From contig NC_019678.1 in the NCBI RefSeq assembly GCF_000316665.1, positions 4,898,001-4,962,000 on the forward strand: 64,000 nt of DNA, in the 5' to 3' direction. The position numbers were made by a program, and so were the translations under genes. The notes under the pieces are model-generated. The model had not been told where the DNA came from and searched no databases. It worked only from the letters and a program-made list of their open reading frames with translations. Positions 36,825 through 56,482 of this stretch are shown here, piece after piece; position 1 is the stretch's first letter; every line of letters starts with the position of its first letter. Source of the DNA: Rivularia sp. PCC 7116 (GTDB lineage Bacteria > Cyanobacteriota > Cyanobacteriia > Cyanobacteriales > Nostocaceae).

Positions 36825-36880
36825 CTACCCACTCCTACCTGTTTCCCATACCCCATTACCAATTATCAATTACCAATTAC
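36825..36880. repeat. STRR-like array
   Basis: ATTACCA/CAATTAC-type units lie just downstream of the GST stop. The rest of the 334-bp gap holds only the lipoxygenase terminator. Confidence 0.6.
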
Positions 36881-37488: not shown

Positions 37489-37883
37489 ACTAAAAATATC
37501 GATTTAAGAAATGATTCTTCAATTTAAATTTAAATTACAATAAATTGTCCAAAAAACAGTAAATTAATTATAAATTTTTCATAATACACACATTTCTTTA
37601 AAACTATATTTTAAGTTTTTTAAATTGATACAATGATTTTGTTGCTACTCATATACGGATAATAATAAAAACATTAATACCAATCTTTATGAATCATATT
37701 TAACGCTATTTGTTGAAGAATACTTATGCTTTTTCAGCTATACATTAGCTATATATAGGTTAAAGGTTCTATTTATTATGAACGTGAATTCTTTTATCTA
37801 TGTAATGGTTATCTACTTTGCTACAAAAAATCATTTATCATAGGTGTTTAAATAGACCTGTAAAATCAATAGCTCGTAATCAT
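37489..37883. other. Divergent intergenic region
   Basis: AT-rich region between the divergent GST and HMCES-type genes; it should hold both promoters. Nothing else is recognised. Confidence 0.5.
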
Positions 37884-38570: not shown

Positions 38571-38656
38571 CAGAAAATGCCAAAAATTTTGGTTAAATTA
38601 GCTATTAATAGCAACCAATAACCAGCAACCAGTTACCACTATAATTATTGTCAGAT

Positions 38657-39178
38657 ATGCCAAGAACTCAGAAGAACGATAATTTTATCGATAAGTCCTT
38701 TACGGTAATGGCAGACCTCATACTCAAGCTTCTGCCAGCTAATAAAAAAGCCAAAGAAGCGTTTGTTTATTATCGAGACGGGATGTCAGCCCAAGCAGAC
38801 GGTGAATATGCCGAAGCTTTGGAAAACTATGAGGAAGCTTTGGAACTTGAAGAAGATGTTAACGATAAAAGCTATATCCTCTATAACATGGGCTTAATTT
38901 ATGCCAGTAATGGCGACCATGACAAAGCTTTGGAACTCTATCATCAAGCATTAGAATTCAATCCCCGTTTGCCCCAAGCTTTGAATAATATTGCCGTTAT
39001 TTATCACTTCAAAGGTGAAAAAGCCAAAGAAGCTGGGGATCAAGATGGAGGAGAAGCCCTGTTTGATAGAGCTGCTGATTATTGGATTCGAGCTATCCGC
39101 ATGGCTCCAAACAACTATATTGAAGCTCAAAACTGGCTCAAAACCACAGGGCGATCGCAAATTGACGTATATTTTTAG
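38657..39178 (+). CDS. ycf3: Photosystem I assembly protein Ycf3
   Basis: The 173-aa protein is a typical Ycf3: [16 protein letters not shown], then three TPR repeats (about 35-140), ending Q-I-D-V-Y-F. It is a thylakoid chaperone for PsaA/PsaB assembly. The ATG at 38657 gives the family-standard N-terminus; a TTG nine bases upstream is not needed. The stop codon lies in a TAGTTGT STRR array. Confidence 0.96.
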
Positions 39179-39218
39179 TTGTTAGTTGTTAGTTGTTAGT
39201 GGTTAGTTATTAGTTCTT
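39175..39218. repeat. STRR array at the ycf3 stop codon
   Basis: Five TAGTTGT/TAGTGGT heptamers begin at the ycf3 TAG stop codon. Confidence 0.7.
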
Positions 39219-39401
39219 AATACGCTATGGCAACTAATTGCAAAAATTAATTAGTGTAAAATGTAAAAACGGGCAGGATGCCGGTACCACAAGATGTTTA
39301 GCTTTTTGCGGTATGGACATTTGGCTCGTTTATTTTATTTTTCTTAAATTGGATTACGATTAACTATTGACAACTTATTTGTTAATTTATAACTAAAAAA
39401 C

Positions 39402-39692
39402 ATGATTGACCGCGAACAAGTACGTAAAGTTGCTCATCTTGCGCGTTTAGAATTGACAGCGGAAGAAGAAGAAAAATTCACTACTCAATTAGGCGATATT
39501 TTAGATTATTTCGATCAATTGAGCGAATTAGACGTTACGGATGTACCACCTACAACTAGAGCTATAGATGTCAGCAATGTGACACGCGAAGACAACCTAC
39601 AGCCTTATGCTAATAGAGAAGAAATTCTCCAAAGCGCCCCCGAGCAAGAAGGTGAATATTTCAAAGTGCCGAAAATTATGAGCGGGGAATAG
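39402..39692 (+). CDS. gatC: Asp-tRNA(Asn)/Glu-tRNA(Gln) amidotransferase subunit C
   Basis: The 96-aa protein matches Gat[27 protein letters not shown] and a C-terminal F-K-V-P-K-I. It stabilises the GatAB amidotransferase that makes Gln-tRNA(Gln). GatA and GatB are not nearby, as is usual in cyanobacteria. Confidence 0.95.
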
Positions 39693-39825
39693 GTAATAGC
39701 GTATTGGACATGGGGAATTGGTAATTGGTAATTGGTAAGAACGTTAATAGAATTCCTACACAATTTCTAAGTACCTATGCCCTATGCCCCATGCCCCATG
39801 CCCCATGCCCTATCTCCTATTCCCA
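39690..39825. repeat. Two STRR arrays after gatC
   Basis: AATTGGT units (about 39713-39740) and CCCCATG/CCCTATG units (about 39778-39822) fill most of the gap before msrB. Confidence 0.75.
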
Positions 39826-39903
39826 TCGAAAGATAGTGTTATGTAACGAAATATTGCGATTAAATATAATTATTGGGTTATGTAATTCGGAATTTCAGCA
39901 ATT

Positions 39904-40317
39904 ATGACAACTTCAAATAGTGAATTCAAAGTTAAGAAATCTGAGGAAGAGTGGAAGCAAGAACTGACTCCGGAGCAGTTCCAAGTATTACGTAAACACG
40001 GTACCGAACGTGCTGGCACGAGTCCCTTAGATAAAAATTATGACAAAGGGACTTATGTATGTGCTGCTTGCGGTCAACCTCTTTTTACCTCGGAAACTAA
40101 GTTTAATAGCGGTACTGGCTGGCCAAGTTTTTATGCACCTATGGATGATGCAATTGAAACATCGGTTGATAAAAAGTTATTTATGACTAGAACCGAAGTT
40201 CATTGCAGTAACTGCGGCGGACATTTAGGTCATGTATTTGGTGATGGACCTAAGCCTACCGGACAGCGCTACTGTATGAATGGCGTTTCCCTTGAGTTTA
40301 AGCCGGAAGAAGGTTAA
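39904..40317 (+). CDS. msrB: Peptide-methionine (R)-S-oxide reductase
   Basis: The 137-aa MsrB repairs oxidised methionine. It has two zinc pairs (C-A-A-C and C-S-N-C), the family motif G-T-G-W-P-S-F and the catalytic Cys in R-Y-C-M-N. There is no signal peptide, so it is cytoplasmic. Confidence 0.95.
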
Positions 40318-40375
40318 TTCTTCTAATTTCGGTTTGGTTTCAATCCAAAATTTTAGTTAATCTCATTAAATAATG

Positions 40376-40401
40376 TAGAGACGTAAAATTTTACGTCTCT
40401 A
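40376..40401. terminator. Perfect 26-bp palindrome after msrB
   Basis: TAGAGACGTAAAA and its exact reverse complement adjoin without spacer. It belongs to the GAGACGTA hairpin family and may end the msrB transcript. Confidence 0.6.
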
Positions 40402-40447
40402 TAAATTTATGAAGGTTTTGAGATAAACTCGCTATATTCCGTATATT

Positions 40448-40500
40448 CTATGCAATTTATTTTTCTTAACCAACAGCTACAGGTGAAGAAACATCAGCAG
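40448..40500 (-). pseudogene. Relic 3' end of a second haem peroxidase gene
   Basis: These 53 bp are nearly identical to 40865-40917, the last codons and 3' flank of the peroxidase gene. In reverse complement they read A-D-V-S-S-P-V-A-V-G-stop against G-D-V-S-S-P-V-A-V-R-stop. The similarity stops where a 110-bp repeat begins (40505). It is best explained as the remnant of a tandem duplicate. Confidence 0.7.
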
Positions 40501-40504
40501 CTTT

Positions 40505-40614
40505 GTAGGTTGGGTTAAGCGAAGCGCAACCCAACATCCGTGTTGGGTTACTCTACTAGAAAGCTGAGCCGCACGCTCCGCGTGAACGCTTACATTTCAT
40601 TCAACCCAACCTAC
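40505..40614. repeat. 110-bp dispersed element, copy 1
   Basis: It starts GTAGGTTGGGTT and ends AACCCAACCTAC (inverted ends) with GAAGCGCAACC and GAGCCGCACGC inside. A second 110-bp copy lies at 58067-58176. It continues on the right to AACTAATGGGACAAA, also shared with copy 2. Confidence 0.85.
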
Positions 40615-40883
40615 GAAAAGCTTTATCAAACCAGTCAAAACTAATGGGACAAATCACTAGTAGTCCACCAAGGTAACTATGGGGGGTTAATCACGAGAAA
40701 AAATTATTCTCTACCCCCTCTTCCCCCTCTTCCCCCTCCCTATCTTTAACCGGCAAAGTTGGTTTGCTCGAGTACTACTCCTTCCCGGTAAAAGATTTCC
40801 TATAAAAAACCGCAGAGAAAAGAGTTAAAAATAGATAGGCAATCTTAGGGCGGGATAGGAGTAGTCTATGCAAGTTATTTTTC

Positions 40884-42410
40884 TTAACGAACAGCTACGG
40901 GTGAAGAAACATCACCAGTCTCAGATGTGCGATCGCCATTCAGGCGCGGCTCATCGCCTATAGGATTAATGTCTCCTACAAAGTTTAATAAATCGCTCAT
41001 GGTAAAGGTTCCAGGATTTTGAGCGGGTAGGGTTGGTCGCCAATCTGGATTACAAGCAAGGAAAGAACTGCTATCGGCTTTGAGAAGTCCGACAAATACT
41101 TCAGCTAAAATACGACTTCCTACTTGTCCCAAACGATTTCCTTGTTGCTGGACTTGGGCTTCTTTGAGGATGTAGTACCACAGTGGAGATTCTATATGAA
41201 AATTGTGTTTTTCAGCGACTAATCCGTCTATCCCAGAACAGATTTCTGCTTTATTTAGAGGCTTAAATCTCATAAAGCGAGCTACACTTTGTCCGGAAGG
41301 TAAACCGAGACTGCGACCTCTAAGTAAGTTTCTCACAGCCAGAGAGCGAGGTTCTGGAATATTAGGTATCATTTTCAGAGGTTCAACCAGGAATGGATCG
41401 AGTTTGCGGCTAAAGTTAACTGGAACGTTGAAATCTATCTCGAAGAACCTTCTCCAGTCGATAATCCAGTCGCTAGGAATGGGAACGGAATTTCCTGATT
41501 CAGCGGTGAACTGAAATAATAGCTGTAAAGTTGCCGGAGTGACTCCACCAGGACGAGGAGTAAACACGCGGTTAAAGTCATAGTCAGCACGTATCATACT
41601 ATGACCGAGACGGTAAGCTGCGACAGAAAACTCTACAGGAATAAATGGTTCTTCTCTAAATCTAAAGTACTTTCTACCCTTGTGTAATGCAATCTCTAGC
41701 TGCGATACATCAATAATTCTAGTTAGAAAATCATTTAAGACAATCCATTGATAATGCCAGATAACTAACTCTCTAGCCTGCTCAAAAACAGATTTATCGG
41801 TGGAACTTATAGGCTGAATACTACCATCTTTAATTCCCTTAACTACTTTGTTATGGAACTTGAGAAAAGCTAAGTGTGTCTGAGCAACAATCAAGTTTTC
41901 ATCGTTGCGGGGGTCGCCAATAATAGCGAGTTTACTGGAAGCGCGAGGAAGGTCATTAGGTAATTCCGTGGGAATAGAACTATCACCGCCTCCTGGTTGA
42001 CTGTTTGTCTTACCGATCAAAAATAAATCGTTCTCACGAACTTGATATAAATATCTTTGAGTTTTGGGACCACCACCATAAACGCTATCTAAATCTAATC
42101 TTGGAGTCCGAAAATTTCTGACTGCCAAGGGATCGACTAAAACTTCCTGTAAAGCAGTAGTATCAAAAGTAATATCATGGTCGATAAACTGACCCAAATA
42201 GGTATAACCTGCGGGTACATTCTTGTTATCGCCCTCGATTGAATTGGAATCTACATCATTCATTGCTTCACCCAACTCAGTCAAGCTGCCTATTGAGGGT
42301 GTAAAAGCACGCAATCTCGGAAACATCCTTCCGAATTTACCAGTTGGCGCAAATTCACCATTAGGTTGATTCTCACCAGTACGATAACTAAATCCATGAA
42401 GTCTAGACAT
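40884..42410 (-). CDS. Animal-type haem peroxidase
   Basis: The 508-aa protein is of the peroxidase-cyclooxygenase superfamily (related to bacterial peroxidases, fungal linoleate diol synthase and PGHS). The distal His is His78 in G-Q-F-I-D-H-D-I-T; D-P-R-N-D-E-N (about 166-172) holds the catalytic Arg; the proximal His is His270 in Y-R-L-G-H-S-M-I-R. There is no P450 domain, signal peptide or membrane helix. It is the most downstream gene of the minus-strand block that contains the violacein-type genes; a role in oxidative coupling there, or in oxylipin formation with the lipoxygenase, is inference only. Confidence 0.9.
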   Translation of the reverse strand: MSRLHGFSYRTGENQPNGEFAPTGKFGRMFPRLRAFTPSIGSLTELGEAMNDVDSNSIEGDNKNVPAGYTYLGQFIDHDITFDTTALQEVLVDPLAVRNFRTPRLDLDSVYGGGPKTQRYLYQVRENDLFLIGKTNSQPGGGDSSIPTELPNDLPRASSKLAIIGDPRNDENLIVAQTHLAFLKFHNKVVKGIKDGSIQPISSTDKSVFEQARELVIWHYQWIVLNDFLTRIIDVSQLEIALHKGRKYFRFREEPFIPVEFSVAAYRLGHSMIRADYDFNRVFTPRPGGVTPATLQLLFQFTAESGNSVPIPSDWIIDWRRFFEIDFNVPVNFSRKLDPFLVEPLKMIPNIPEPRSLAVRNLLRGRSLGLPSGQSVARFMRFKPLNKAEICSGIDGLVAEKHNFHIESPLWYYILKEAQVQQQGNRLGQVGSRILAEVFVGLLKADSSSFLACNPDWRPTLPAQNPGTFTMSDLLNFVGDINPIGDEPRLNGDRTSETGDVSSPVAVR

Positions 42411-42541: not shown

Positions 42542-43276
42542 TCAATTTGAGTTGATTGTTTCCCCGACACATTCTCTATCCGCTAGGTTTTGGGCTTCTC
42601 CCACTCCAACTAAACGACCATCTTCCATATTTACAATCCGGTCTGCAATGTCGAGGATACGGTTATCGTGAGTAACTAAAAGGATAGTGCAAGCTTGCTG
42701 CTTAGCTAGTTTTTGCATGAGGTTAACTACATTCCTACCCGATTTACTATCTAAAGCAGCAGTGGGTTCGTCGGCTAAGATAATTTTGGGATGAGGAGCC
42801 AAGGCACGCGCTATAGCGACTCGCTGCTTTTGTCCTCCTGACAAATCATCTGGATAATAATTCAACCGCGATTCTAAACCTACAGCCTCTAACATTTCTT
42901 GGGAGCGAGTTTGCATTTGCGAACGGGAAAGGTTTTTATGTACTTCCAAACCCATTTTGACGTTTTGTATCGCTGTTAAACTGCCATGTAAATTATGTGC
43001 TTGAAAAATATAACCGTTACTTCGTCGCACATTAGTTAATCTTCTGGGACTAGCATTAAGTAATTCCCGTCCTAATACCTGCAAGCTACCTGATGTCGCA
43101 CTACGTAATCCACCAATTAAAGTTAGCAGTGTTGTTTTACCAGAACCAGATGGCCCAGTCATGATAATAATTTCACCTGCGTTAATTTCTAAATTGATAT
43201 CAAATAATACTTGCTTTCGTAATTGAGAACGACCAAAAAAGTGATTGAGATTTTTTATAGATACAACAGGTTCCAT
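42542..43276 (-). CDS. devA: ABC exporter ATPase, DevA type
   Basis: The 244-aa ATPase has Walker A G-P-S-G-S-G-K-T-T (about 40-48), signature L-S-G-G-Q-K-Q-R and Walker B I-I-L-A-D-E-P. It is of the MacB/DevA class. It follows a DevC-type permease and DevB-type fusion protein, completing a DevBCA exporter. The founding DevBCA of Anabaena exports heterocyst glycolipids with TolC, but such operons exist in many paralogues; this one adjoins biosynthetic genes, so it may export their product. Confidence 0.9.
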   Translation of the reverse strand: MEPVVSIKNLNHFFGRSQLRKQVLFDINLEINAGEIIIMTGPSGSGKTTLLTLIGGLRSATSGSLQVLGRELLNASPRRLTNVRRSNGYIFQAHNLHGSLTAIQNVKMGLEVHKNLSRSQMQTRSQEMLEAVGLESRLNYYPDDLSGGQKQRVAIARALAPHPKIILADEPTAALDSKSGRNVVNLMQKLAKQQACTILLVTHDNRILDIADRIVNMEDGRLVGVGEAQNLADRECVGETINSN

Positions 43277-43322: not shown

Positions 43323-44504
43323 TTAAAACATGTCAGCAGGGTCGGCTGATTGCAATTTAAGAGTGGCAATAACACCAGATATCATACACATGACAAAAGT
43401 TAATGTTAGGACTAACAATGCTCTGGATACAGTCATGTAAACGGGAAGCATAGTAGCCTTTCGTGTATTTTGATATAGCCACATAGGTAGTGCCATTCCC
43501 GGTATAAATCCTAGTAAAGCTAAAATTATTGCTTCTTCAATCACAATGGTAAGCAAATAGCGATTGTGATATCCCATTGCTTTGAATGTGGCGTATTCTT
43601 TAATATGAGCATTAACATCTGTGGAGAGAACTTGATAAACTATAATTACACCAACTAAAAAGCCCATTGCCGTTCCCAATCCAAAGATAAAACCGATGGG
43701 AGATTGAGTTGCCCAAAATTCATTTTCAAATTGAATAAATTCTTCATGAGTTAGAACTTTGACATCATCAAATTCTCGAAGATGATATTTGATTTCTTTT
43801 GCAACTTGAGCCGATTCGTATCCAGGTTTAACTTTAATTAAAGCAAGATTGAGAGCGCTTGCCTTTTGCTTCGGAAATAGCCGTAAAAAATTATCATCGC
43901 TAGTAATTAAGTTTCCATCTGCCCCAAAAGAACTTCCTAAATCGAATAATCCAGCAATTTTGATAGTACGTTTTTCGATTTCGGTTGTAACTACTTGATT
44001 TTGTTCTACTTGAGCAATTGCTTGTTGGTATTCTCCTCTAGTTCCACGGTCAAATAAAAATGTATCTGGTAATTTGGTTAACTGGAGTTGTTGATTAACC
44101 GCAGGTAAGTTTAAAGAAGGTTTTTGAGGATTAATTCCTATAACTTGAATCGATTTTTCTTCGCGGGTTTGGGGATTTTTCCAAAGGATAACATTAACAT
44201 ACATCCCTTGTGTAGAGCTTACACCTTCTATATCTTTAGCCTGATACATTCGTCTACGTGAAAATGTAGACATTCTCTGCATATTTTGAGCTTTAGGGCT
44301 AATTAATACAATATCGGTATTCAAAGAGCGATTCAGGCGAGTGTTGCTATTGTATAGCGCTGATTGAAAACCTAGCTGCATAAACATTAAAACATCAGCA
44401 AAGGCAATCCCCGATACTGCAATTAGTAACCGACCTTTTTCACGACTTAGTTGCAGCCATCCTAAAGGCGTTCGTCGCCCTAGCTGTTGAATGAATCCAA
44501 TCAT
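43323..44504 (-). CDS. devC: ABC exporter permease, DevC type
   Basis: The 393-aa protein has the DevC layout: one N-terminal membrane helix, a large periplasmic domain (about 45-260) and three C-terminal helices (F-G-L-G-T-A-M-G-F-L-V-G, then I-L-A-L-L-G-F-I-P-G-M-A-L-P). It overlaps the devB-type gene by 4 bp (ATGA), so the two are translationally coupled. Confidence 0.92.
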   Translation of the reverse strand: MIGFIQQLGRRTPLGWLQLSREKGRLLIAVSGIAFADVLMFMQLGFQSALYNSNTRLNRSLNTDIVLISPKAQNMQRMSTFSRRRMYQAKDIEGVSSTQGMYVNVILWKNPQTREEKSIQVIGINPQKPSLNLPAVNQQLQLTKLPDTFLFDRGTRGEYQQAIAQVEQNQVVTTEIEKRTIKIAGLFDLGSSFGADGNLITSDDNFLRLFPKQKASALNLALIKVKPGYESAQVAKEIKYHLREFDDVKVLTHEEFIQFENEFWATQSPIGFIFGLGTAMGFLVGVIIVYQVLSTDVNAHIKEYATFKAMGYHNRYLLTIVIEEAIILALLGFIPGMALPMWLYQNTRKATMLPVYMTVSRALLVLTLTFVMCMISGVIATLKLQSADPADMF

Positions 44505-45811
44505 AGTTCTATTTCCGCTTCAATTTGCAAATTGGTATATTTGGATGCTATTTCACTGGAAGCCTTATGAAGTTTTACGTACACTTCAACTACTTTGGCA
44601 TCAATATTTTCGCTAGGATCTGTATTGACTACATCTTGCCGACGAACCTTTGAACTAATCCGAGCTACCTCGCCATATAGTTCATTTGGTAAAGAATTAC
44701 TGGTAACTTTCGCCTTTTGTCCCAAGCTTACTTTGCTAATATCGGTTTGATAAACTTCTGCAACTGCATACATCTGACTGGTTTGCCCAATCTCTACAAT
44801 GCCATTATTAGAAACTACTTCTCCTGGGCGCGTGTATATTTCCAATACCTCACCATCTTGAGGCGATCGCACGTAAGCTTGTTTAAGTTTTTCTTTCGCT
44901 TGATTAACTGTAGCCATGCCATCTCTAACTTCTGCTTGTGCTGCTTGCACGTCTACAGGACGTATTTCGGATATTTTGTCTAAGGTGGCTTTGGCTTCGC
45001 TAATTTGATTTCTCCCCGTTGCTTGAGTTCGATATAAAACTGTTTGTGCTTCGCTGATTTCTTTTTTCCCTGTTGCGTTAATGCGACGTAAAACAGCTTT
45101 GCCCTCGTTTTTTTTCTTCTGAGCGGTTTCCATTGCCAAACGCTTACTATCAAAGTTTGAACGGGAAATGGCACCGTTATTATATAGATGCTGATAGCGC
45201 CGATATTCAGCTTCGGCATTTCTTACTTCTGCTTCAATGCTTTCGATTGTTGCTTGTTGGGCAGCTTTATCACCTTCTAGTTGGGCTTTAAGTCGAGTCA
45301 CAACATCTTTTTGCGCGGCTATATCACCCTCTAACTGCGCTTGCAGGCGGGCAATTACTGCTTTTTGGGCTGAAATTTCGCCGCTTTTGGCTCCTGTCTT
45401 GACTTTGGCTAAATTAGCACCAGCAATTCTTACTTGTTCTTCTGCTTTGACAATATCTGCTTGCAGTCTACTTTGACTATCGAGAATAGCTATTATTTGT
45501 CCTGCTTTAATTTTGTCTCCTTCTTTAACCAATAATTTTTGAAGTCGATTTTCTTGACTAGATGTTGGTGCTGAGATTTTGACTATGTCTCCCTTTGGCT
45601 CAAGTCTGCCTAAAGCTGTTACGGTTTTAATTTGAGGTATCACAACTTCGGGTTTCGCAACCGTATTTGATTGTTGGTTTTCAGACTTCTTAGTAGCGAA
45701 AGTTCTTATCCCACCTAAAATAAGTATTGCAGCAGTTGTCAGCATAATACCTTGTCGAAAACTTGGTTTCCAAGATATTGAATTATTAGTAGTGGCTGTA
45801 TCTGATTTCAT
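44501..45811 (-). CDS. devB: Membrane fusion protein, DevB/HlyD type
   Basis: The 436-aa adaptor has one N-terminal membrane helix (about 20-40), a biotinyl-lipoyl-like half motif (V-K-E-G-D-K-I-K-A-G-Q), a long Ala/Lys/Glu-rich coiled-coil hairpin (about 115-300) with a tandem repeat of A-Q-K-A/V-V-x-R-L-x-A-Q-L-E-G, and a C-terminal barrel. It would link the inner-membrane ABC pump to a TolC-type channel. It is the first gene of the exporter operon. Confidence 0.92.
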   Translation of the reverse strand: MKSDTATTNNSISWKPSFRQGIMLTTAAILILGGIRTFATKKSENQQSNTVAKPEVVIPQIKTVTALGRLEPKGDIVKISAPTSSQENRLQKLLVKEGDKIKAGQIIAILDSQSRLQADIVKAEEQVRIAGANLAKVKTGAKSGEISAQKAVIARLQAQLEGDIAAQKDVVTRLKAQLEGDKAAQQATIESIEAEVRNAEAEYRRYQHLYNNGAISRSNFDSKRLAMETAQKKKNEGKAVLRRINATGKKEISEAQTVLYRTQATGRNQISEAKATLDKISEIRPVDVQAAQAEVRDGMATVNQAKEKLKQAYVRSPQDGEVLEIYTRPGEVVSNNGIVEIGQTSQMYAVAEVYQTDISKVSLGQKAKVTSNSLPNELYGEVARISSKVRRQDVVNTDPSENIDAKVVEVYVKLHKASSEIASKYTNLQIEAEIEL

Positions 45812-45959: not shown

Positions 45960-47195
45960 TCACCGATAATTTTCGTTGCTCCAGCCTTTGTTGCGTCTGG
46001 GAGTGAGTAGAAAATTAAGCAGAGTTAATGTAGCTAGAGAAATAGCAGCAGTTACCCAAAACACTCCTTCCATACCCCATAAGCCGAAGGAGATGCCAGC
46101 GATTAACGGACCGAGTGCTTGCCCGATTGATTGTACGGTAGCATTAACCGCCATAAATCCGGCTCTAGCATTTTCTGCGGCTAGTTCTGCTAATAATGCT
46201 TGACTAGAAGGCATTACCAAACCTTGGGCTGCACCAAATAAAGCACTGGGCACGATTAACAACCAAGCATTGTTTATTGCAGGAGTAATCAACACAGCAA
46301 CAGCAACAATAATGAAAGCGATTTTAATCAAATTTATTTCCGATGTTCTTCGGGCTAATCTTCCTAACTGCGAAGCAACTATCGCTAAAGATATTGACAT
46401 AGTGGTTAAAATTAAGCCATTAAGCAATCCAGAAGTCCCAAATTTAACTCCTGCGAGGATAGGGACGTAAGTCATAAAGGCTCCAGATTGAATTGCAAAT
46501 ATCGAACCTATTGCCAAAAGTAGTCCCAGCACGGAAGTATTGTTAACGCTGCGCCAGGTATTTCCTAAATAATTCTTGAGATTGCTGGGTTGGCTAATAC
46601 TGGTTTTTGTGGGAAGTTTAAGTACCATTAAAACTAACATCACCAAAGGAAAGGCGATAACTGCGAGCAAAAATGGGTATCGCCAGCTAAAACCTGCTAA
46701 TGCCCCACCAATCAACGGATAAATAGCCGTACTAATGCCTACTATACTGACATTCACAGACATTGCCGTGGTTAAAGCTTTGCCTCGATACATCATGCTA
46801 ATCATGGTCAAAGCTATAACATTTAAGCTAGTAACACCCAAACCTTGAAGAAATCGCCACCCCAGGAGAGTTTGAAAATCCTGGGCAAAGGAAATACAAC
46901 CTCCAGCAATTGCAAATAGTAATAAAGACGGTACTAAAACTTTTCTTATTCCTACGCGATCGGCTAGTACACCTAAAATAGGGGTAGCAATGCTCATGGG
47001 TAGAAAAAACACGGTCATTACTAATTGAATTTCGTTGAGAGAGACATCAAAAACTTTAGCTAAATCTGGCAGTATAGGTGCAATCGTGGGAGCGCCCATA
47101 ATCGAAATTAAGGTAACACCAATGATGATATAAAGATTGCGGTCTCGAAGAGGATTTTTGGTAGTTGTCAAATCGGGCTGCATAGTTGGTTGCAT
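45960..47195 (-). CDS. MFS drug/metabolite transporter
   Basis: The 411-aa protein has twelve predicted membrane helices and the loop 2-3 motif G-V-L-A-D-R-V-G-I-R-K of the major facilitator superfamily. It resembles multidrug-type proton antiporters. Placed between the exporter operon and the VioD-VioE gene, it may export or protect against the cluster product. Confidence 0.9.
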   Translation of the reverse strand: MQPTMQPDLTTTKNPLRDRNLYIIIGVTLISIMGAPTIAPILPDLAKVFDVSLNEIQLVMTVFFLPMSIATPILGVLADRVGIRKVLVPSLLLFAIAGGCISFAQDFQTLLGWRFLQGLGVTSLNVIALTMISMMYRGKALTTAMSVNVSIVGISTAIYPLIGGALAGFSWRYPFLLAVIAFPLVMLVLMVLKLPTKTSISQPSNLKNYLGNTWRSVNNTSVLGLLLAIGSIFAIQSGAFMTYVPILAGVKFGTSGLLNGLILTTMSISLAIVASQLGRLARRTSEINLIKIAFIIVAVAVLITPAINNAWLLIVPSALFGAAQGLVMPSSQALLAELAAENARAGFMAVNATVQSIGQALGPLIAGISFGLWGMEGVFWVTAAISLATLTLLNFLLTPRRNKGWSNENYR

Positions 47196-47372: not shown

Positions 47373-49088
47373 TTAGGACTGTTGGTTGTTATGGTAATCA
47401 AAAATATTACCCGAAATGACTTCTGTATTTAAGTTAGGAAAATCCCTTACCGAGGCATGTTTATTCGGGTCTCCCGTAACCATACGTATCAAATGATTCG
47501 TGCCCTGCTTGAAATAATAAGTCGATACAGCTTTTCCAGGTCTTTTAAACTTCCAGGCATCTGTTTTGATTCCTAATATTGTATGGCTGCCTGCATAAGT
47601 CGCATTATGGCGAATCAATATATCTTGCGTTAGCAACAATTCATGGCAGGAATCGACATCATCTTCTAAGTTAACTGCTTTGTAAGCTGTTTGCTCGTTT
47701 TCTTTTCTGGCGTAAGCTACTTTACTCATGCGTGTTTCTCCCTTACCTGGGGTAAATATCTGAGACATCCACAATCTATGTCCAGTTTCCTTTTCACTCC
47801 AAGGATTAAATAAACCATCTATACGACCAAGATTGTTACTGTAGTCAAACCAGCAATATCCCGAAGTTATTTGGTCTTCATCCAACATTGGCTGCCAATA
47901 GGAAACATAGCTAGTACTCCATTGTTTTGGAAGTAGAGGTGGTGTTTGGGGTTCTGTTTTCACCGAGGTTCGTTCGAGTGCTTGGCTCAAATTTTTACCA
48001 AGGGCTGCTGGTAAAGAAGGTAAGGTTGCGCGACGTGCATCAAAACTTGCCGTAAGTTCGGTTTTACTAAGGTTTATATAGCTATCGATATTCTCAAACC
48101 ATAGGCGGCTGGCATCGGCATGATTGCGGAATAAATTCATCAATGGCATGACTTTTTGGTCAAATGATTCTAAAGCAGATGAAACATCGCTATGTTCATG
48201 CAAGGCTTTGACTAACATCTGTGCCCCTACAACTGCCATAGTTGTTCCTTGCCCGATAGAAAAATGCCCCGATTGAAGCGCATCACCTAACAATACCAAG
48301 TTTTGGTCGTAGGATTTACTATGACTCATAGTCATGAAATTCCGCCATTTCAAGCCATTTTGTCCTTGTAAAGCATGACCATCCAATTCATCTTTAAATA
48401 CCGTACCGATAAAAGCAGCAGCATCTGCATCTGAAAGCTTATCAAGTCCAGCATTTAAATAAGTTTCTTCGCTGCACTCTACCACAAAGGTGCTCATATC
48501 GTTGGAATACTTATATGCGTGGGCGATGAAAACACCTTTAGGATCGACTTTGAAGATCAAGTTTAAAAAATCGAAGGTTTTGCTGGTGCCATACCAGATA
48601 TATTTATTTTTGCCATACTGTATTTCCGGTTTCAGTGCTTCTCTGAAATAATTAGATTTATGGCTAATTCCATTTGATAGCACCACTAAATCATATTTAT
48701 CTCTATTCAGATCGGACTCAGACATTGCAGGAGATGAATAGTCAATAGCAATACCAACTTGCTTGCAGTGTTCTTGTAAAGAACGCACTAAAGCCTGACG
48801 CTCAACAGCACACAGCGTTAGCCCCGTACTCATCATATTGCTCTGGTTACGATGAACTAACTTAAACTCTTCTAAGTATTGGGCACTGAGTTGGTCAAAA
48901 TCATTTAAATACGATAAGGGATTAGCTGGGTGATGAGGTGCGCGACCGGGTAATACCACACCCCATCCTACCACTTCCTGGGGTTTGTTTTTTTCAATTA
49001 TCTTGATATCCCAGTTTGGTTTGAGTTTTTTCATCTGATAAGCAAAAATTAATCCTGCGGGGCCTGCTCCTACAATTAAGATTTTCAT
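47373..49088 (-). CDS. vioD-vioE: VioD-VioE fusion: flavin hydroxylase joined to violacein rearranging enzyme
   Basis: The 571-aa protein joins two violacein-pathway enzymes that are separate in Chromobacterium. Residues 1-373 read as full-length VioD (V-G-A-G-P-A-G-L FAD site; G-W-G-V-V-L-P-G-R; N-K-Y-I-W-Y-G-T-S; G-D-A-L-Q-S-G-H-F-S-I-G), the FAD hydroxylase that puts OH on C5 of one indole. Residues about 381-565 read as VioE (P-P-L-L-P-K-Q-W; Y-V-S-Y-W; S-G-Y-C-W-F-D-Y; R-I-D-G-L-F-N-P-W-S-E; R-M-V-T-G-D; R-D-F-P-N), the cofactor-free enzyme that rearranges the indole-pyruvate imine dimer to prodeoxyviolacein. VioE residues I recall as important (Tyr17, Ser19, Phe50, Asn51) map to Tyr394, Ser396, Phe427, Asn428; Glu66 maps to Gln443. 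AGGAGA precedes the ATG. Identity is from remembered family sequences, not an alignment run. Confidence 0.9.
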   Translation of the reverse strand: MKILIVGAGPAGLIFAYQMKKLKPNWDIKIIEKNKPQEVVGWGVVLPGRAPHHPANPLSYLNDFDQLSAQYLEEFKLVHRNQSNMMSTGLTLCAVERQALVRSLQEHCKQVGIAIDYSSPAMSESDLNRDKYDLVVLSNGISHKSNYFREALKPEIQYGKNKYIWYGTSKTFDFLNLIFKVDPKGVFIAHAYKYSNDMSTFVVECSEETYLNAGLDKLSDADAAAFIGTVFKDELDGHALQGQNGLKWRNFMTMSHSKSYDQNLVLLGDALQSGHFSIGQGTTMAVVGAQMLVKALHEHSDVSSALESFDQKVMPLMNLFRNHADASRLWFENIDSYINLSKTELTASFDARRATLPSLPAALGKNLSQALERTSVKTEPQTPPLLPKQWSTSYVSYWQPMLDEDQITSGYCWFDYSNNLGRIDGLFNPWSEKETGHRLWMSQIFTPGKGETRMSKVAYARKENEQTAYKAVNLEDDVDSCHELLLTQDILIRHNATYAGSHTILGIKTDAWKFKRPGKAVSTYYFKQGTNHLIRMVTGDPNKHASVRDFPNLNTEVISGNIFDYHNNQQS

Positions 49089-49222
49089 TTGTTGACTCTC
49101 CTGAATTTGTTTAATTTGTAATAAAGCTGTTGTTTTTTTGGGCTTTTAGCACAATTTGCGATTAGTACCTACGCGAACTATGCTGGGTTCTTCAGAGCGC
49201 ATATTTTGGCTCAACATAACGA

Positions 49223-50512
49223 CTAATTCATTCGACCTAATTTGTACCAAACATTTTGCTGGCTTTGCAGATTCTGTAAATGGCTGTAAGGCATTGAGGT
49301 AAAGTAGAGTTTTTCAGCCATATCGGGGGGGTAAACTGTAGGAAATTTCTTGTGCATAAAATTTGTGTATTTAATACGCATGGGCAATATAGGGCTGGAA
49401 GAACTTAATACCTGATAATTAGCACGTGCCATATCTTGCATAGCGTCAGCTTCTATTTTTCTCAACTGGGTAAATTCAGGTAGGGTTTTTTCAAAATCGT
49501 CATGATTTTTTTCTAATAGCTGAGAAAATATTTGGGCATCTTCAAGTGCCATATTCATTCCCTGTCCCAAAAATGGCGCGGTTGCATGGGCAGAGTCGCC
49601 GAGTAGTAATGCATTTTTTTTGTAATGGAACGTACTCGATCTAGCATTAATTAAATCGTTACTGGGTTTTTCGAGAAACTGTTTTACCATTTCATTACGG
49701 GTATCTGCTGGCATCTCGGGGAGATAGCGCGTAAAAAATTGCAAAACTTCTTCCTTCTTTTGCATGTTCAAACTAATTGCTCCCTTATAAGGCAAGCAGA
49801 TGCAAAAACTGATGCTACCATCTGGAATGATTGCCGCACGGCCGCCAAACAAGCCTTTTGAATCCATGCCAAAGAAATATAATAATTCCTTGCGAAAGTT
49901 TAGCTTCGCGGCATCGGGTATTACTAAAGTTTTGTAACCATGTCTAAAAAATGACTGATGAAATTCAAAGCAACGGATAGCGTTTTGCATAGCCTGACGA
50001 ACTTTTGAACGAGCACCGTCTGTAGCAATTATTAAGTCGCCAGATATATAATGAAAATCATCGTTTTTATCTTGGGTAGTTATATATTTTTGTTCGAGAT
50101 TAACATCAATACATTTATGCCCAAAATGATATTTAACACCATTGATTATGCCGTGTTTATTCAGTAACTTCTGAAATGCGGATCTATCTAAAGAAAGCGG
50201 CAATAAATTTTCAACTGGAACTAATTTTCTAACTTTAAATTTACCTCCGACAAAAAAAGACATGCCAGATATCGGCTCACCGCACAAATCTAATTCTTCT
50301 TTGGGAATACCTGCACCGAGAACTGCTTTAATTCCTCTTGCTGTCATGCTGACACCAATTCCTCGGGAACTCGATCTATCTACATATGAAGAGATATTTT
50401 CTTGCGGATCTGAACGTTTTTCTACTACGTGGACGGAATGCCCTCTACGGGCTAAATAAATAGCGGCAAGTCCGCCTGCGAGTCCTCCACCAACAATAAT
50501 TATTTTACTCAT
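49223..50512 (-). CDS. vioC: VioC-like FAD monooxygenase
   Basis: The 429-aa protein has the same length as Chromobacterium VioC and matches it along its whole length: G-G-G-L-A-G-G (FAD), S-R-G-I-G-V-S-M-T-A-R-G-I-K, F-F-R-H-G-Y-K-T-L-V, F-F-G-M-D-S, K-P-S-N-D-L-I-N-A-R-S-S-T-F-H-Y, G-D-S-A-H-A-T-A-P-F-L-G-Q-G-M-N-M and P-P-D-M-A-E-K-L-Y-F-T-S. VioC hydroxylates C2 of an indole in the last violacein step and belongs to the kynurenine-3-monooxygenase group. GAGGG precedes the ATG. It is 134 bp upstream of the VioD-VioE gene and likely co-transcribed. Family call is firm; the substrate here is uncertain. Confidence 0.92.
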   Translation of the reverse strand: MSKIIIVGGGLAGGLAAIYLARRGHSVHVVEKRSDPQENISSYVDRSSSRGIGVSMTARGIKAVLGAGIPKEELDLCGEPISGMSFFVGGKFKVRKLVPVENLLPLSLDRSAFQKLLNKHGIINGVKYHFGHKCIDVNLEQKYITTQDKNDDFHYISGDLIIATDGARSKVRQAMQNAIRCFEFHQSFFRHGYKTLVIPDAAKLNFRKELLYFFGMDSKGLFGGRAAIIPDGSISFCICLPYKGAISLNMQKKEEVLQFFTRYLPEMPADTRNEMVKQFLEKPSNDLINARSSTFHYKKNALLLGDSAHATAPFLGQGMNMALEDAQIFSQLLEKNHDDFEKTLPEFTQLRKIEADAMQDMARANYQVLSSSSPILPMRIKYTNFMHKKFPTVYPPDMAEKLYFTSMPYSHLQNLQSQQNVWYKLGRMN

Positions 50513-51457: not shown

Positions 51458-52693
51458 CTAATATTTCTCGAATAAAATACCTTCCACACCAATTCCGGGA
51501 GCAAACGAGAATGAAAGCCCAGTCAGTTTTTCTGGGATAGTTTTCCCATCCTGAAAAGATTCTGATTCTAAACGAAGCATTACTCGCTCAATAACAAATA
51601 AAATCGCACAGCTAAGCATATTGCCGTATTGACGTAATATTTCCCAGCTATCTGCTACTTGTTCGTCAGTGAGTCCTAAAGAACTTTGTGCTTTCTCGAT
51701 AATGCGAGTCCCGCCGGGATGAACAGCCCATAAATCAATTTGCTCTTTTGTAAGTTGGCAATCTGCCAGAAAATTATTGATAATTGGGTTTAAGCCATTT
51801 TCAATGTAGCTAGGTAAATCGCGCGATAGCTTACAGGTAATACCACTGTCATTAATTCCCAAACGAATCCCATCTTCAGTATCGTCAACTAAATAACTGA
51901 AGTTATCTTTAATGACAATTTTATTTCTACCAAACAACATATTTTCTTCTCTACCACCAAGCACTACTGCTGCACATCCATCTCCAAAAATGCTGTGAAT
52001 AATGGTGTCATTTATGTTGTCTTCAAATACGGCATTAACTGAACTCAACTCCAAGCAAACTACCAAAGCTCTTTGATTGGGATTAGCTTTTATATAGTCG
52101 CAGGCAATTCGTAAACCATTCATTGCTGCTGCACATCCCATAAAATGCACCGGTATACGAGCAATATTTCGTTTCAATCCTAAACTTTTGATTAGTTTTG
52201 TATCAATTCCTGGGGCAACAAATCCCGTACTGGTTACAAAAACAATTAGTCCAATACTCTCTTCAATATTATCGGAGTATAAAGAACCGTCATCTCTCGT
52301 GCTGGCTTCAGCAGATTTTAAGGCTTGTTTAGCGACTTTTTCTGCTAAAGGAAATGCATACTCTTCAAACATCTCCATTCGCTGTTGAATTGTACCTTGT
52401 TTACGGCTAAATTCATAGCTTTCTTCGGATAATAAATTTACTGCTAAACGTCTTTCTTCGATACGAGTGTTTTGATAAATTTTGGCGATACGGTGACGAT
52501 TGCGATCTAAATTTTTGAGATTAGCTACAAATTCTGCTGCATCTTTTTGAGAAATAATGTTGTCGGGGGTACCGGTGGCGATGCCTTCAATTGTTGGTAA
52601 TACCTGTTTGCTTGAGATGTTTGAAATATTATGATTGGAAAGCCTTGCTATCAATCCCTTTTGCTGTTTGACTCGGATAGTAGTGTTAGTCAT
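51458..52693 (-). CDS. Type III polyketide synthase
   Basis: The 411-aa protein is a chalcone-synthase-fold type III PKS. The catalytic triad is visible: Cys187 in H-F-M-G-C-A-A-A-M-N-G-L-R, His325 in V-H-P-G-G-T-R and Asn358 in Y-G-N-M-L-S. G-I-G-V-E-G near the C-terminus is also typical. The bacterial enzymes load acyl-CoA or acyl-ACP starters and extend with malonyl-CoA to give pyrones, resorcinols or similar rings. Neighbours suggest it makes an aromatic or pyrone moiety for the cluster product. No clear ribosome site is seen. Confidence 0.93.
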   Translation of the reverse strand: MTNTTIRVKQQKGLIARLSNHNISNISSKQVLPTIEGIATGTPDNIISQKDAAEFVANLKNLDRNRHRIAKIYQNTRIEERRLAVNLLSEESYEFSRKQGTIQQRMEMFEEYAFPLAEKVAKQALKSAEASTRDDGSLYSDNIEESIGLIVFVTSTGFVAPGIDTKLIKSLGLKRNIARIPVHFMGCAAAMNGLRIACDYIKANPNQRALVVCLELSSVNAVFEDNINDTIIHSIFGDGCAAVVLGGREENMLFGRNKIVIKDNFSYLVDDTEDGIRLGINDSGITCKLSRDLPSYIENGLNPIINNFLADCQLTKEQIDLWAVHPGGTRIIEKAQSSLGLTDEQVADSWEILRQYGNMLSCAILFVIERVMLRLESESFQDGKTIPEKLTGLSFSFAPGIGVEGILFEKY

Positions 52694-52848: not shown

Positions 52849-54381
52849 TTAACCAATGCCGCTAAAGCCAGTAAAGCCAACAACAATATAATCGATACTT
52901 GTTTTTAAGGCTTGAGGATGAAAATGTTCTTGGAATATTCCAAATTTATTGTCTTTTGCCATTTGAGAGCGAGTTGTTAAACATTGATGAATTAAAGTGG
53001 GTAAGCGGTCTGTGAAAAAGTTTTTTGGCTGTAACCATTCAACGTTAAATTTCGCCGCTTCTTCTCGAACAATATCTTCGCTAATGATGTTGGCAAAACC
53101 ACTTTTTTGTTGGGGTAATACGTGGTGAACGCGATGAGGGCTTAAACCTGCTGATAGAAAACAGTCAACATATTTATTACCAATCATGCTTAAGTCACAA
53201 GAGTTTTCAATTTGAAGTACAGCCCAATCTTGTTCCTGCCAATTTGTTTCTTTATCGATTTTTTCTTCGTCAAAATCGTGACTGCCAAGAATTAAGAAAG
53301 TAGCTAGCCAAAGGGTAACTAAAAATTGTCCAAGCCAAGCGAGAAAATCACCGTTAATAGTAAAGACAATTAATTCACCTAATAGCAGAAGATGTACTCC
53401 AAATGCCCCAATGAAGTTTTCTACCGGAAAGCCCAGAGGAAATATGTCAGTTTGTTTACCTTGATTGTTTAGTTCTTTGATTCTTCCTTGGATAGATAGG
53501 ATTGCTACAATTGTTATCTGGGCAAACATGCCGGAGATAACGTGAGCCGCTGTGTGCAAAGTATGCAGGGGAATTCGATAGTAACGGGGTAGTTCCAAGA
53601 AGAACGATACGGTGCCATTTTTCTTAACATCCACTTTGCTTTCAATGAAAGGGTGATGCATTAAGTTATGTCCGTCAATTTGTACTATCGCCAAAGGCAC
53701 ATAGTTAATATCGAATAGATTGGCAAATATTTTGTTTAGTCCTATTTGGGGGCGATGCAGTAGGTAATGTCCCGTACCTGAAAGTGCAATTTTTATGATT
53801 GCCATTAAAGGTATAAAAACGTAAGCTGGCATATATTGGTTAAAATCTAAGCGCAGCCAGTCCACGAGGATATATGCAATCACTAGGAGAGCGCTGACGA
53901 CATTAAACAATAAGTCCATTTGAGCCACCTTTTTCTGCATTTCTGGCTCGTTTAATCTGGAATTGATGCGATTGAGTAGCTGGTTTTCTTTTTTAATGTT
54001 GTATTTTGGCGTGTCTCTCCAGCTATCAAAATCCTGATGAAACAGAAACTCAGGTGCCCAACAAGTAGGGTGAATATCTTCTGTTGTTGCAAATCGCCCC
54101 AAAGAATATTTTTCTAAAACTTTTTTCACTTTATCGGGGTTACGATGAAAAAAATTAACGAAAGTGGTAATATCTCTGTTTTTGGTGCGGCGAATAAAAA
54201 ATTCTCCTCCTGGATGCTTGCCAATAAATTCTGTCAAATCATAAGCTTCACCATCATAAATCCAGACATTTGGTAATGATGTAGTTTCTGACGCTGGTTC
54301 GCGAACTTCTAGAACTGAATTGTTGAGATGGTTAATATTTGCAGTTGTTTGGTTTTGTTCAATGGTAGTATGGTTATTCAT
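52849..54381 (-). CDS. Cytochrome b5-fused fatty-acid desaturase-like protein
   Basis: The 510-aa protein starts with a cytochrome b5 domain (about 37-98; haem ligands His56 in H-P-G-G and His79) and continues as a membrane di-iron desaturase/hydroxylase with four or more membrane helices. Histidine boxes are H-Y-L-L-H (205-209), H-N-L-M-H-H (238-243) and H-R-V-H-H (416-420). The first H of the last box replaces the Q of front-end desaturases. It probably desaturates or hydroxylates a lipid-like chain, perhaps the starter or product of the adjacent type III PKS. Confidence 0.87.
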   Translation of the reverse strand: MNNHTTIEQNQTTANINHLNNSVLEVREPASETTSLPNVWIYDGEAYDLTEFIGKHPGGEFFIRRTKNRDITTFVNFFHRNPDKVKKVLEKYSLGRFATTEDIHPTCWAPEFLFHQDFDSWRDTPKYNIKKENQLLNRINSRLNEPEMQKKVAQMDLLFNVVSALLVIAYILVDWLRLDFNQYMPAYVFIPLMAIIKIALSGTGHYLLHRPQIGLNKIFANLFDINYVPLAIVQIDGHNLMHHPFIESKVDVKKNGTVSFFLELPRYYRIPLHTLHTAAHVISGMFAQITIVAILSIQGRIKELNNQGKQTDIFPLGFPVENFIGAFGVHLLLLGELIVFTINGDFLAWLGQFLVTLWLATFLILGSHDFDEEKIDKETNWQEQDWAVLQIENSCDLSMIGNKYVDCFLSAGLSPHRVHHVLPQQKSGFANIISEDIVREEAAKFNVEWLQPKNFFTDRLPTLIHQCLTTRSQMAKDNKFGIFQEHFHPQALKTSIDYIVVGFTGFSGIG

Positions 54382-54748: not shown

Positions 54749-56281
54749 TCAATTAGAAATTGGCACAGAAGCTGAGGTTTTAACCTTGCCTAGGGACATA
54801 GAAGTAAACTTCATTGTCGAATCGACAGAAGGCTTGTAGCTCGCAATATCATGTACGGCTTGCAGTGCTGATTCGATGGAGCCTTCCATCCATGCAGGTA
54901 GCCTAGAACAGTGTTCTCCCGCAAAAAACAGCGTATTTTGAGACCTTGCCATATCTTGATACTGATGACGTTCATATGACATATCATGATTCCAAGGAAC
55001 GGAACATCCCCCAGCGCTCCATTTGTAAGTGCTCCAAGCAATAGTCGCTGTATCAGAAAGCATACCGGGTGTTTGAATCTCAGGATGAATTTTACTCAGA
55101 GCGTTTTTTACATAGTGACTGCGATCCTGCTCTGACATTTTTCCCAGATATGTAGCATCATCGCCAATAGTGTAGCTAGCTAATAATACGCTTCCTTGGG
55201 AAGAATTATTGCTAACAGAAGGATAGTAAACTTGGCGAATCCCTTCATCGCTGAAAGAGGCACCCCCAAAGATTCCATGCTTTTGCCAGAAAGGGCGAGC
55301 GCAATGAAATAAAACTTTTGTTGCTGGCCAGTAAACCGCATTATTGATTGCAGCTATTTTTTTATCGTCAAAGCCGCTTAGCTCTATCTTCCGCAGCACT
55401 GAAAACGGGATAGTGCATAACACATAGTCGCAGTGCCTCGTATATAGTCGCCCTTCTTCCAACCAAGAAACCTCAACGCCATTTTCAAGTACTCTCAAAG
55501 CGACTATTTCTTGATTGCATCTAATGGGAGCATTGATTGCTTCAGCTAGATTGGTAGTTAATTGATCCATCCCTCCCTGTAGTTGCATTAGATTAGGACT
55601 TGTCTCAACTAAAATATCGTTGAGAAACAAATCCAGTGCTTTACTGCATTTTTCTCTAACATCTGGATGGGTTTTAATAAACCTATGGATATCAATAGCT
55701 TTACCTTGCAGATTAAGAAAAGGCTGCAAATCTAACGTCTCTAGCCTATCCATTAAATGCGTTAAGTCATGTTCGAGACATTCCCGTAACTCTCCAGAGC
55801 CGATGGCATTGACTATAGTCTTGAGCCAAGCTGCAAATAGCTTAGTCTTTTCGCTGTAGCGTTTGTCTAAGAATAGACCTTGATAGAGCTTCTGTAATGC
55901 CCTATCTGCCACGTCCCGAATGCGACATAGTTTACCCTGAATATTTAGCAGAGCATTGTTTTCCTCGAACATAGTCACAAACTTGCATAACTTATCGCTT
56001 AATCCCATCTCGTTTATGTAATGCAAAACGCATTCATGATCTGAAGGAATTCGCATTGCTCCTAACTCTCCGTAAGGCGCTGAAGAATCATTGCCGAATC
56101 TATGCGTCCAGACTCTACCGCCAATACGCGGACTGCCCTCCATAATATCGACTTGATGACCCATACGTTCGAGTTCATAAGCAGCTACCAAACCAGCAAT
56201 ACCTGCACCTAGAACGGTAATGCGTTTGCTTTGTTGGTAATTATCGAACTTGAACTCATGCAGCATTGTTTTGACATCCAT
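54749..56281 (-). CDS. Flavin amine oxidase / L-amino-acid oxidase
   Basis: The 510-aa protein is a GR2-family flavin amine oxidase: V-L-G-A-G-I-A-G-L (FAD) with an acidic strand end, G-G-R-V-W-T, G-E-L-G-A-M-R-I-P as in L-amino-acid oxidases and tryptophan 2-monooxygenases, and C-terminal F-F-A-G-E-H-C-S-R with W-M-E-G-S-I-E-S-A. It likely converts an amino acid, perhaps tryptophan, to its imine. In violacein synthesis VioA does this; VioA is about 420 aa and differs in motif detail, so this looks like a functional substitute rather than VioA. The ATG at 56281 has an AAAGG nine bases upstream. It is the first gene of the minus-strand block. Confidence 0.87.
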   Translation of the reverse strand: MDVKTMLHEFKFDNYQQSKRITVLGAGIAGLVAAYELERMGHQVDIMEGSPRIGGRVWTHRFGNDSSAPYGELGAMRIPSDHECVLHYINEMGLSDKLCKFVTMFEENNALLNIQGKLCRIRDVADRALQKLYQGLFLDKRYSEKTKLFAAWLKTIVNAIGSGELRECLEHDLTHLMDRLETLDLQPFLNLQGKAIDIHRFIKTHPDVREKCSKALDLFLNDILVETSPNLMQLQGGMDQLTTNLAEAINAPIRCNQEIVALRVLENGVEVSWLEEGRLYTRHCDYVLCTIPFSVLRKIELSGFDDKKIAAINNAVYWPATKVLFHCARPFWQKHGIFGGASFSDEGIRQVYYPSVSNNSSQGSVLLASYTIGDDATYLGKMSEQDRSHYVKNALSKIHPEIQTPGMLSDTATIAWSTYKWSAGGCSVPWNHDMSYERHQYQDMARSQNTLFFAGEHCSRLPAWMEGSIESALQAVHDIASYKPSVDSTMKFTSMSLGKVKTSASVPISN

Positions 56282-56360
56282 TTTCAAAAACCTTTCTTCG
56301 TGGTGACAGTTGTTCTCTCAAATTTTGAATCAAATACGGATGTTGCAAGGAAATATATCA

Positions 56361-56482
56361 GGACTTACGCAATTGTCAAAAAGCTTAGGTGGTGCGTGAC
56401 AATATAAACCTTATTACTATGTTGCTCGTCAGTAAAAGTGTCACAGCACCCTACAAGAAAAATATGCCAGTTGCGTAAGTCT
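56361..56482. mobile_element. MITE-like element, GGACTTACGCAA ends
   Basis: 122 bp with terminal AGGACTTACGCAA and inverted TTGCGTAAGTC. A stretch TAGGACTTATGCAAC near 57877 and another near 57955 look like partial relatives. Confidence 0.7.

Follow-up and report, generated by a model that had tools for sequence, protein, structure and literature searches.

A VioC gene and a VioD-VioE fusion gene in the cyanobacterium Rivularia sp. PCC 7116, candidate parts of a violacein-type tailoring cluster

Identity of the VioC and VioD-VioE Genes

We analyzed a stretch of 64,000 nucleotides (hereafter the window; positions 4898001-4962000) of the 8.70-Mb chromosome of Rivularia sp. PCC 7116 (assembly of 3 contigs, completeness 100), where an earlier note, made from the letters alone, had proposed enzymes of violacein biosynthesis on the minus strand. 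Both open reading frames (ORFs) named there were confirmed at their exact coordinates: 49223-50512(-) encodes a VioC-type flavin adenine dinucleotide (FAD) monooxygenase of 429 aa, and 47373-49088(-) encodes a protein of 571 aa in a single frame, free of internal stops, in which a short linker joins a VioD domain (residues 1-373; 47970-49088(-)) to a VioE domain (residues 383-563; 47400-47942(-)). Ribosome-site-like sequences lie upstream of both genes. Judged from their sequences, these are genuine cyanobacterial relatives of three violacein enzymes, VioC, VioD, and VioE.

The full-length VioC match claimed by the earlier note was recovered with the model NF053548, which covers residues 1-429 of 429 at 758.2 bits and falls short of its cut-off (760) by 2 bits; the VioC copies of two other Nostocaceae genomes, G548 and G474, exceed this cut-off at 768 bits. 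Across the ten genomes searched, the scores of this model lie between 735 and 768 bits and then drop to 209, with a gap between. With the VioC proteins of three further cyanobacteria, the Rivularia protein shares 76-82% identity; its matches in the PDB include no VioC, the nearest being kynurenine 3-monooxygenases, and its membership in the family was assessed by profile alone.

The VioD model NF053547 is covered from 1 to 372 of 372 (protein residues 2-373) at 635.2 bits, above its cut-off of 620, and the last 190 residues or so, which the same note had singled out for checking, do match the VioE family, with scores of 269.6 bits for TIGR03650 (cut-off 177.05) and 337 bits for PF18234 (cut-off 25). 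The best matches of the fusion in the PDB are VioD 3c4a (E 1.5e-146) and VioE 2zf3 (E 4.8e-56), both from Chromobacterium violaceum. We built a tree of 12 VioD-like proteins: five cyanobacterial VioDs, the two VioDs of the PDB, and five outgroups, two of them annotated as salicylyl-CoA 5-hydroxylase, two as FAD-dependent monooxygenase, and one bearing no annotation. A 100/100 split separates the cyanobacterial and PDB VioDs from all five outgroups, and the cyanobacterial VioDs form one group with weaker support (94/93). Identities agree with this picture: 56-58% between cyanobacterial and PDB VioDs versus 28-37% between VioDs and outgroups, and, for the window VioD itself, 57% to that of C. 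violaceum versus 31-36% to the five salicylyl-CoA-hydroxylase-like proteins. Proteobacterial references for VioD and VioE were the PDB sequences. For VioD and VioE, neither of the outcomes that the earlier note had named as refuting it was observed, and the naming of these genes as violacein-type tailoring enzymes is supported. An AlphaFold2 model of the fusion (10 rows) had a mean pLDDT (predicted local distance difference test) of 45.9 and was not used.

Two separate genes encode VioD and VioE in Calothrix sp. NIES-4105, in a Pleurocapsa contig (L013), and in G474 and G548. No VioC or VioD was found in viral contigs; a plasmid search for VioD-VioE gave no match of at least 60% identity, and among the matches listed (20 places, 179 records) all were below 36%.

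Neighboring Genes

Read on the minus strand, the cluster runs from an oxidase through a b5 protein, a polyketide synthase (PKS), VioC, and VioD-VioE to four transport genes, with VioB located elsewhere. The oxidase (54749-56287(-)) is an L-amino-acid oxidase by PF01593 and our proposed stand-in for VioA; it is followed by a cytochrome b5-domain protein, desaturase-like by eye (52849-54381(-); PF00173), and by a type III PKS-like protein that may provide extra tailoring (51458-52693(-); PF00195/PF02797). Beyond the fusion gene lie a major facilitator superfamily (MFS) transporter, a probable exporter (45960-47195(-); PF07690), a HlyD-type membrane fusion protein (44501-45811(-); PF16576/PF13437), an FtsX-type ATP-binding cassette (ABC) permease (43323-44504(-); PF02687), and an ABC transporter ATPase (42542-43276(-); PF00005), whose 3' end is situated at the left edge of the inserted segment described below; the last three are presumably DevB, DevC, and DevA, respectively. 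A peroxidase gene (40884-42410) was rejected as a cluster member because G541, which belongs to the same genus and lacks VioE, has it at the corresponding position with 94% identity.

Promoter and terminator scans of the region gave no excess over shuffled sequences. An extended sigma-70-like promoter matching at 11/12 positions (56352-56379(-)) directly precedes the oxidase gene, which starts at 56287; such sites are no more frequent in the region than expected by chance. A tRNA search of 38000-64000 found none.

Candidate Starter Enzymes

Tested with the VioA model, the cluster oxidase scores 57 bits (cut-off 600) and is, therefore, not VioA by model; elsewhere in the genome, the best stretch reaches 35 bits against the same cut-off. 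Since this model also responds in 8/14 control genomes, the weak signal is uninformative, and VioA was rejected as present in the genome. In a tree sampled from the oxidases of VioE and VioB loci plus one further copy from the Rivularia genome, the cluster oxidase falls into one group (support 90/94) with oxidases encoded next to VioE in G432, G411, and G412, so that all four members of the group are VioE-linked.

As for VioB, the domain PF12902 has a single match in the genome, in a VioB-like protein of 1134 aa (C1:6072341-6075745) encoded 1.1 Mb from the vio cluster. This protein scores 877 bits on the VioB model, below the equivalog cut-off of 1250; its gene is adjoined by one for a RebC-like monooxygenase (579 bits to RebC 2r0c), and its sister in the VioB tree comes from G537, a genome of the same genus that lacks VioE. 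G537 holds the same RebD-like and RebC-like pair, which in Rivularia spans L010:6668-13246 with a glutathione S-transferase (GST) gene close by. No cytochrome P450 or oxidase was found among the ORFs tested around the VioB-like gene (three ORFs of L010 fell outside the model scan), and the indolocarbazole set of oxidase, RebD-type enzyme, and P450 was not found together at this locus, where the partners seen are of the RebC type and GST.

Elsewhere, 20 other VioB loci were read; 13 hold a full-length RebC-like homologue and 14 a separate oxidase (one in two pieces, one cut at a contig end), and the two loci tested with Pfam both contain P450 and GST genes. In three actinobacterial plasmid loci, the VioB-like gene adjoining an oxidase scores 664-763 bits on the VioB model, and in two of the three it also adjoins an FAD monooxygenase. 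These neighbors and scores suggest that the VioB of these cyanobacteria is often an indolocarbazole-type enzyme. VioB copies adjoining VioE fall in three places of the VioB tree. We rejected VioB as a marker of violacein synthesis: 41/217 Nostocaceae, or 49/217 if weak matches are included, hold a VioB-like gene whose C-terminal half reaches at least 380 bits (in some cases split or interrupted), and 32 of the 41 lack VioE; the copy of G526, one such genome, scores 1026 bits, above the 877 of Rivularia. Nevertheless, all nine VioE genomes have a VioB-like gene (9/9 versus 41/217 of the family; p 1.4e-7, relatedness ignored), which fits a supply of VioB in trans. VioB loci (L087, L089-L091, and others) are numerous despite the report, in the available part of PMC8065813 (2021), of tjipanazole and ambigol clusters in Symphyonema only.

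Distribution and Gene Arrangements

VioE was found in 1/386 genomes sampled from the phylum, that of Rivularia itself, and in 9/217 of the family, where VioC and VioD accompany it in 4 of the 9. A search of the other 7 genomes in the genus revealed no VioE. A scan of genome contigs, confined to close relatives, placed it also in a Pleurocapsa metagenome-assembled genome (MAG) and in NIES-4105 (G434).

Four genomes, namely those of Rivularia, NIES-4105, G548, and G474, have VioC, VioD, and VioE in one cluster together with MFS and HlyD genes. G548 and G474 share an order (oxidase, VioB, VioC, VioD, VioE, MFS, HlyD) in which VioB is part of the cluster; G548 adds trpA, trpB, trpC, and homologues of the anthranilate synthase and 3-deoxy-D-arabino-heptulosonate 7-phosphate (DAHP) synthase of NIES-4105, and G474 adds trpD as well as the PKS and b5 genes of the window. 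A third arrangement, in G411, G412, and G432, combines the oxidase with VioE, VioB being nearby in G432 and elsewhere in G411 and G412; in these three genomes, no match to the VioC model exceeds 183 bits and no VioD appears at E <= 1e-20. In G463 and G506, a divergent VioE (37% and 36% identity, respectively, to that of C. violaceum) is found with VioB as two overlapping genes, an oxidase, methyltransferases, a P450, a glycosyltransferase, an acyl-CoA-dehydrogenase-like protein, and homologues of DAHP synthase and anthranilate synthase; neither genome has a VioD or a match to the VioC model above 34 bits. These two loci (L031:4067-17697 and L033:4508-17871) perhaps specify a glycosylated, methylated bis-indole as yet undescribed. 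NIES-4105 joins a front of this last type to VioC, VioD, MFS, and HlyD/ABC genes. DAHP synthase and anthranilate synthase genes, thus, lie in the loci of G548, NIES-4105, G463, and G506 (labels model-tested in NIES-4105 only), which points to tryptophan as the precursor.

At L014:1266-4656, L031:11364-14730, and L033:11538-14838, VioB is divided into an N-terminal and a C-terminal protein whose frames overlap; as the split is seen in three genomes, a real gene split is likelier than a sequencing slip.

The transport genes recur as well. The MFS proteins of the NIES-4105, G548, and G474 loci are 69-76% identical to that of the window; HlyD homologues are present in NIES-4105, G474, G548 (shortened), and Pleurocapsa, and homologues of the ABC permease and ATPase in NIES-4105 and Pleurocapsa, with a remnant in G548. 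In the latter (L027:2660-3732), HlyD is down to 236 aa and the permease and ATPase are left as one frame of 121 aa, so that the export genes look eroded. The Pleurocapsa contig carries separate VioD and VioE genes alongside its HlyD/ABC genes.

The Inserted Segment and Its History

In G541, DNA similarity to the window runs to 42561 and resumes at 80217 (positions beyond 64000 continue the window numbering); about 37.7 kb is absent, with about 0.4 kb instead. The orthologues flanking this gap (36877-40884 on the left, 80310-83937 on the right) are 82-99% identical at the protein level, and the two MsrB genes on either side of the segment are likewise close neighbors in G537. The vio genes make up the left end of the 37.7-kb segment (42562 to about 80216; L012, L130), the rest of which codes for sigma-factor-like, DUF1822, CHASE2/CHAT, DUF928, and CHAT-TPR proteins, two TPS-domain proteins, an RTX protein, and an ORF of 1284 aa.

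With a GC content of 40.2% for the fusion gene and 38.6% for VioC versus 37.0% for window positions 1-40000, the remark of the earlier note that the genes resemble their neighbors in AT content holds; codon use was compared as GC3 (GC at third codon positions). Its suggestion that any transfer was not recent or had been ameliorated calls for one qualification. Synonymous divergence between Pleurocapsa and G474 is 0.29 for VioD and 0.24 for VioE, versus 2.60 for recA; between G474 and G548, it ranges from 0.24 (VioD) to 0.36 (VioE), versus 1.02; between the window and G474, it is 0.68-0.84, versus 1.49. In all pairs for which both values were obtained, the vio genes are, thus, less divergent than recA, as transfer between cyanobacteria would predict; one has to keep in mind that recA is a single control gene and that its values approach saturation at about 1.5 and higher. 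Because the segment is absent from G541 and the vio genes diverge less than recA, their spread among cyanobacteria looks fairly young, and the composition may instead reflect donors of similar GC content.

Pathway Reading and Alternatives

In the violacein pathway, as described in the available text of the review PMC9705886, VioB dimerizes the tryptophan imine, VioE leads the dimer to prodeoxyviolaceinic acid where chromopyrrolic acid would otherwise form, and VioD and VioC hydroxylate; indolocarbazole pathways go through the same kind of imine dimer, according to the accessible part of PMC10851217. On this basis, the reading that we favor, with moderate confidence, is that the locus is a violacein-type tailoring cluster whose pathway is completed by the cell's own bis-indole (indolocarbazole-like) enzymes.

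In the simplest model, the fusion protein would receive its substrate from the cluster oxidase and from the VioB-like enzyme resident in the cell. Judging from its family and clustering, the oxidase would convert L-tryptophan to the indole-3-pyruvate imine, and the VioB/RebD-type enzyme encoded 1.1 Mb away, a homologue presumably used in trans, would join two imines. The VioE domain would then move one indole to give prodeoxyviolaceinic acid before closure to chromopyrrolic acid, and the fused VioD domain would hydroxylate that product at position 5, the fusion perhaps handing on the labile intermediate. VioC would oxygenate the other indole, spontaneous oxidation yielding violacein or deoxyviolacein, and the conserved neighborhood suggests export by the MFS and HlyD/ABC genes. 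According to the available portion of PMC9705886, titers rise when VioC, VioD, and VioE are scaffolded artificially.

Several observations weigh against this reading. The cluster oxidase is not VioA by model, and the VioB-like gene lies outside the cluster, scores below the equivalog cut-off, sits beside a RebC-like gene, and has its closest relative in a genome lacking VioE; the type III PKS and the b5 protein have no place in the known violacein pathway; in Pleurocapsa, no VioB and no VioC above 120 bits were found, in a fragmented MAG whose contig starts inside VioD and in which the controls were silent. To these we add the substitution at Glu66 of VioE discussed below, and the fact that the violacein-type product is a predicted one.

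A bolder version of the favored scheme, which we put forward tentatively and consider doubtful, is a modular grafting by which cyanobacteria would have built a violacein branch: a horizontally mobile group of VioC, VioD, and VioE, together with its exporter, would draw on the imine dimer made by a resident oxidase and RebD of the indolocarbazole type, the VioE-VioD fusion of this strain capturing the labile intermediate and the type III PKS adding a moiety that we do not know from any violacein. If the grafting were true, one coupling enzyme would feed two pathways.

The PKS and b5 genes also suggest a different, further modified bis-indole, in which both enzymes would decorate the VioC-VioD-VioE core and violacein would be at most an intermediate. 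The pair sits side by side within the vio clusters of both Rivularia and G474; the G474 copy of the PKS (78-79% identity) is the closest in 217 genomes, where the seven other matches at E <= 1e-80 are 61-66% identical, and the adjoining b5 protein of G474 is 73% identical. The products of VioE may well vary, since in G463 and G506 its gene is accompanied by those for methyltransferases, a P450, and a glycosyltransferase. However, the stretches read in NIES-4105 and G548 contain neither a PKS nor a b5 gene, and a PKS match at E <= 1e-80 is absent from both genomes as a whole; the two genes could form an independent module. We regard this explanation as unlikely.

Quite unlikely, in our view, is a pathway that is present and not working, its VioE impaired at Glu66 and no dedicated VioA or VioB at hand. 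Six residues of VioE are given as important in the available part of PMC10452622, citing Hirano 2008: Tyr17, Ser19, Phe50, Asn51, Glu66, and Arg172. By alignment, the window VioE keeps all of them except Glu66, replaced by Gln (Gln443 of the fusion; codon CAG at 47760-47762(-)) in this protein alone among the 11 aligned, C. violaceum and nine other cyanobacterial VioEs having Glu. On the other hand, in the same part of PMC10452622, the VioE of Janthinobacterium isolates carrying vioA-E also keeps all but Glu66, and the discussion there calls the critical residues present, so that Gln66 is a reason for caution rather than proof of decay. The frames are intact, both genes are preceded by ribosome-site-like sequences, and the ratio of nonsynonymous to synonymous substitution (dN/dS) of VioC, VioD, VioE, and the oxidase is 0.09-0.29 in pairs involving the window (at most 0.36 over all pairs computed).

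That the proteins are general flavin hydroxylases of the kynurenine or salicylyl-CoA type merely resembling VioC and VioD, as the nearest solved structures to VioC might suggest, is very improbable given the 100/100 VioD split, the drop in VioC scores, and the VioE domain fused on. To our knowledge, VioE has no role outside violacein chemistry.

The earlier note assigned violacein to proteobacteria. With VioC, VioD, and VioE seen to be conserved and to lie together in several photosynthetic bacteria, the genes extend to another phylum, where VioE is associated with oxidases and VioB-type enzymes from different lineages. The locus also offers a natural VioD-VioE fusion and a case in which to test whether two bis-indole pathways draw on a single coupling enzyme.

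Comparison with Known Systems

No description of violacein genes in cyanobacteria was found among the open-access titles and abstracts listed, most subscription journals being outside this scope, and the string "cyanobacter" occurs nowhere in the main text of the review PMC9705886, as far as it is available. We regard the locus as a novel form of the violacein system, from a phylum for which we found no report of it; its kind of chemistry is not new as far as shown.

Like vioABCDE of C. violaceum, the Rivularia genome has full-length homologues of VioC, VioD, and VioE, the last with Tyr17, Ser19, Phe50, Asn51, and Arg172, together with an amino-acid oxidase and a VioB-like enzyme. Unlike that system, it belongs to a host of a different phylum, VioD and VioE are fused, Gln stands at Glu66, VioA is absent by model, the VioB-like gene is 1.1 Mb off and under the equivalog cut-off, and the cluster holds MFS and HlyD/ABC transporter genes, a type III PKS, and a b5 protein.

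The resemblance to indolocarbazole pathways (RebO-RebD-RebC-RebP of rebeccamycin and staurosporine; cyanobacterial tjipanazole) lies in the VioB-like gene beside a RebC-like monooxygenase with GST near, as in other Nostocaceae loci read; the differences are that no P450 or oxidase is present among the ORFs tested around that gene and that VioC, VioD, and VioE are not known from such pathways.

Also close is the Calothrix sp. NIES-4105 cluster (L014), in which, unlike in the window, VioE is separate and divergent, VioB is two overlapping genes, DAHP synthase and anthranilate synthase are adjacent, and no PKS occurs in the stretch read; both have VioC, VioD, VioE, oxidases, MFS, and HlyD/ABC genes, which in NIES-4105 form one run.

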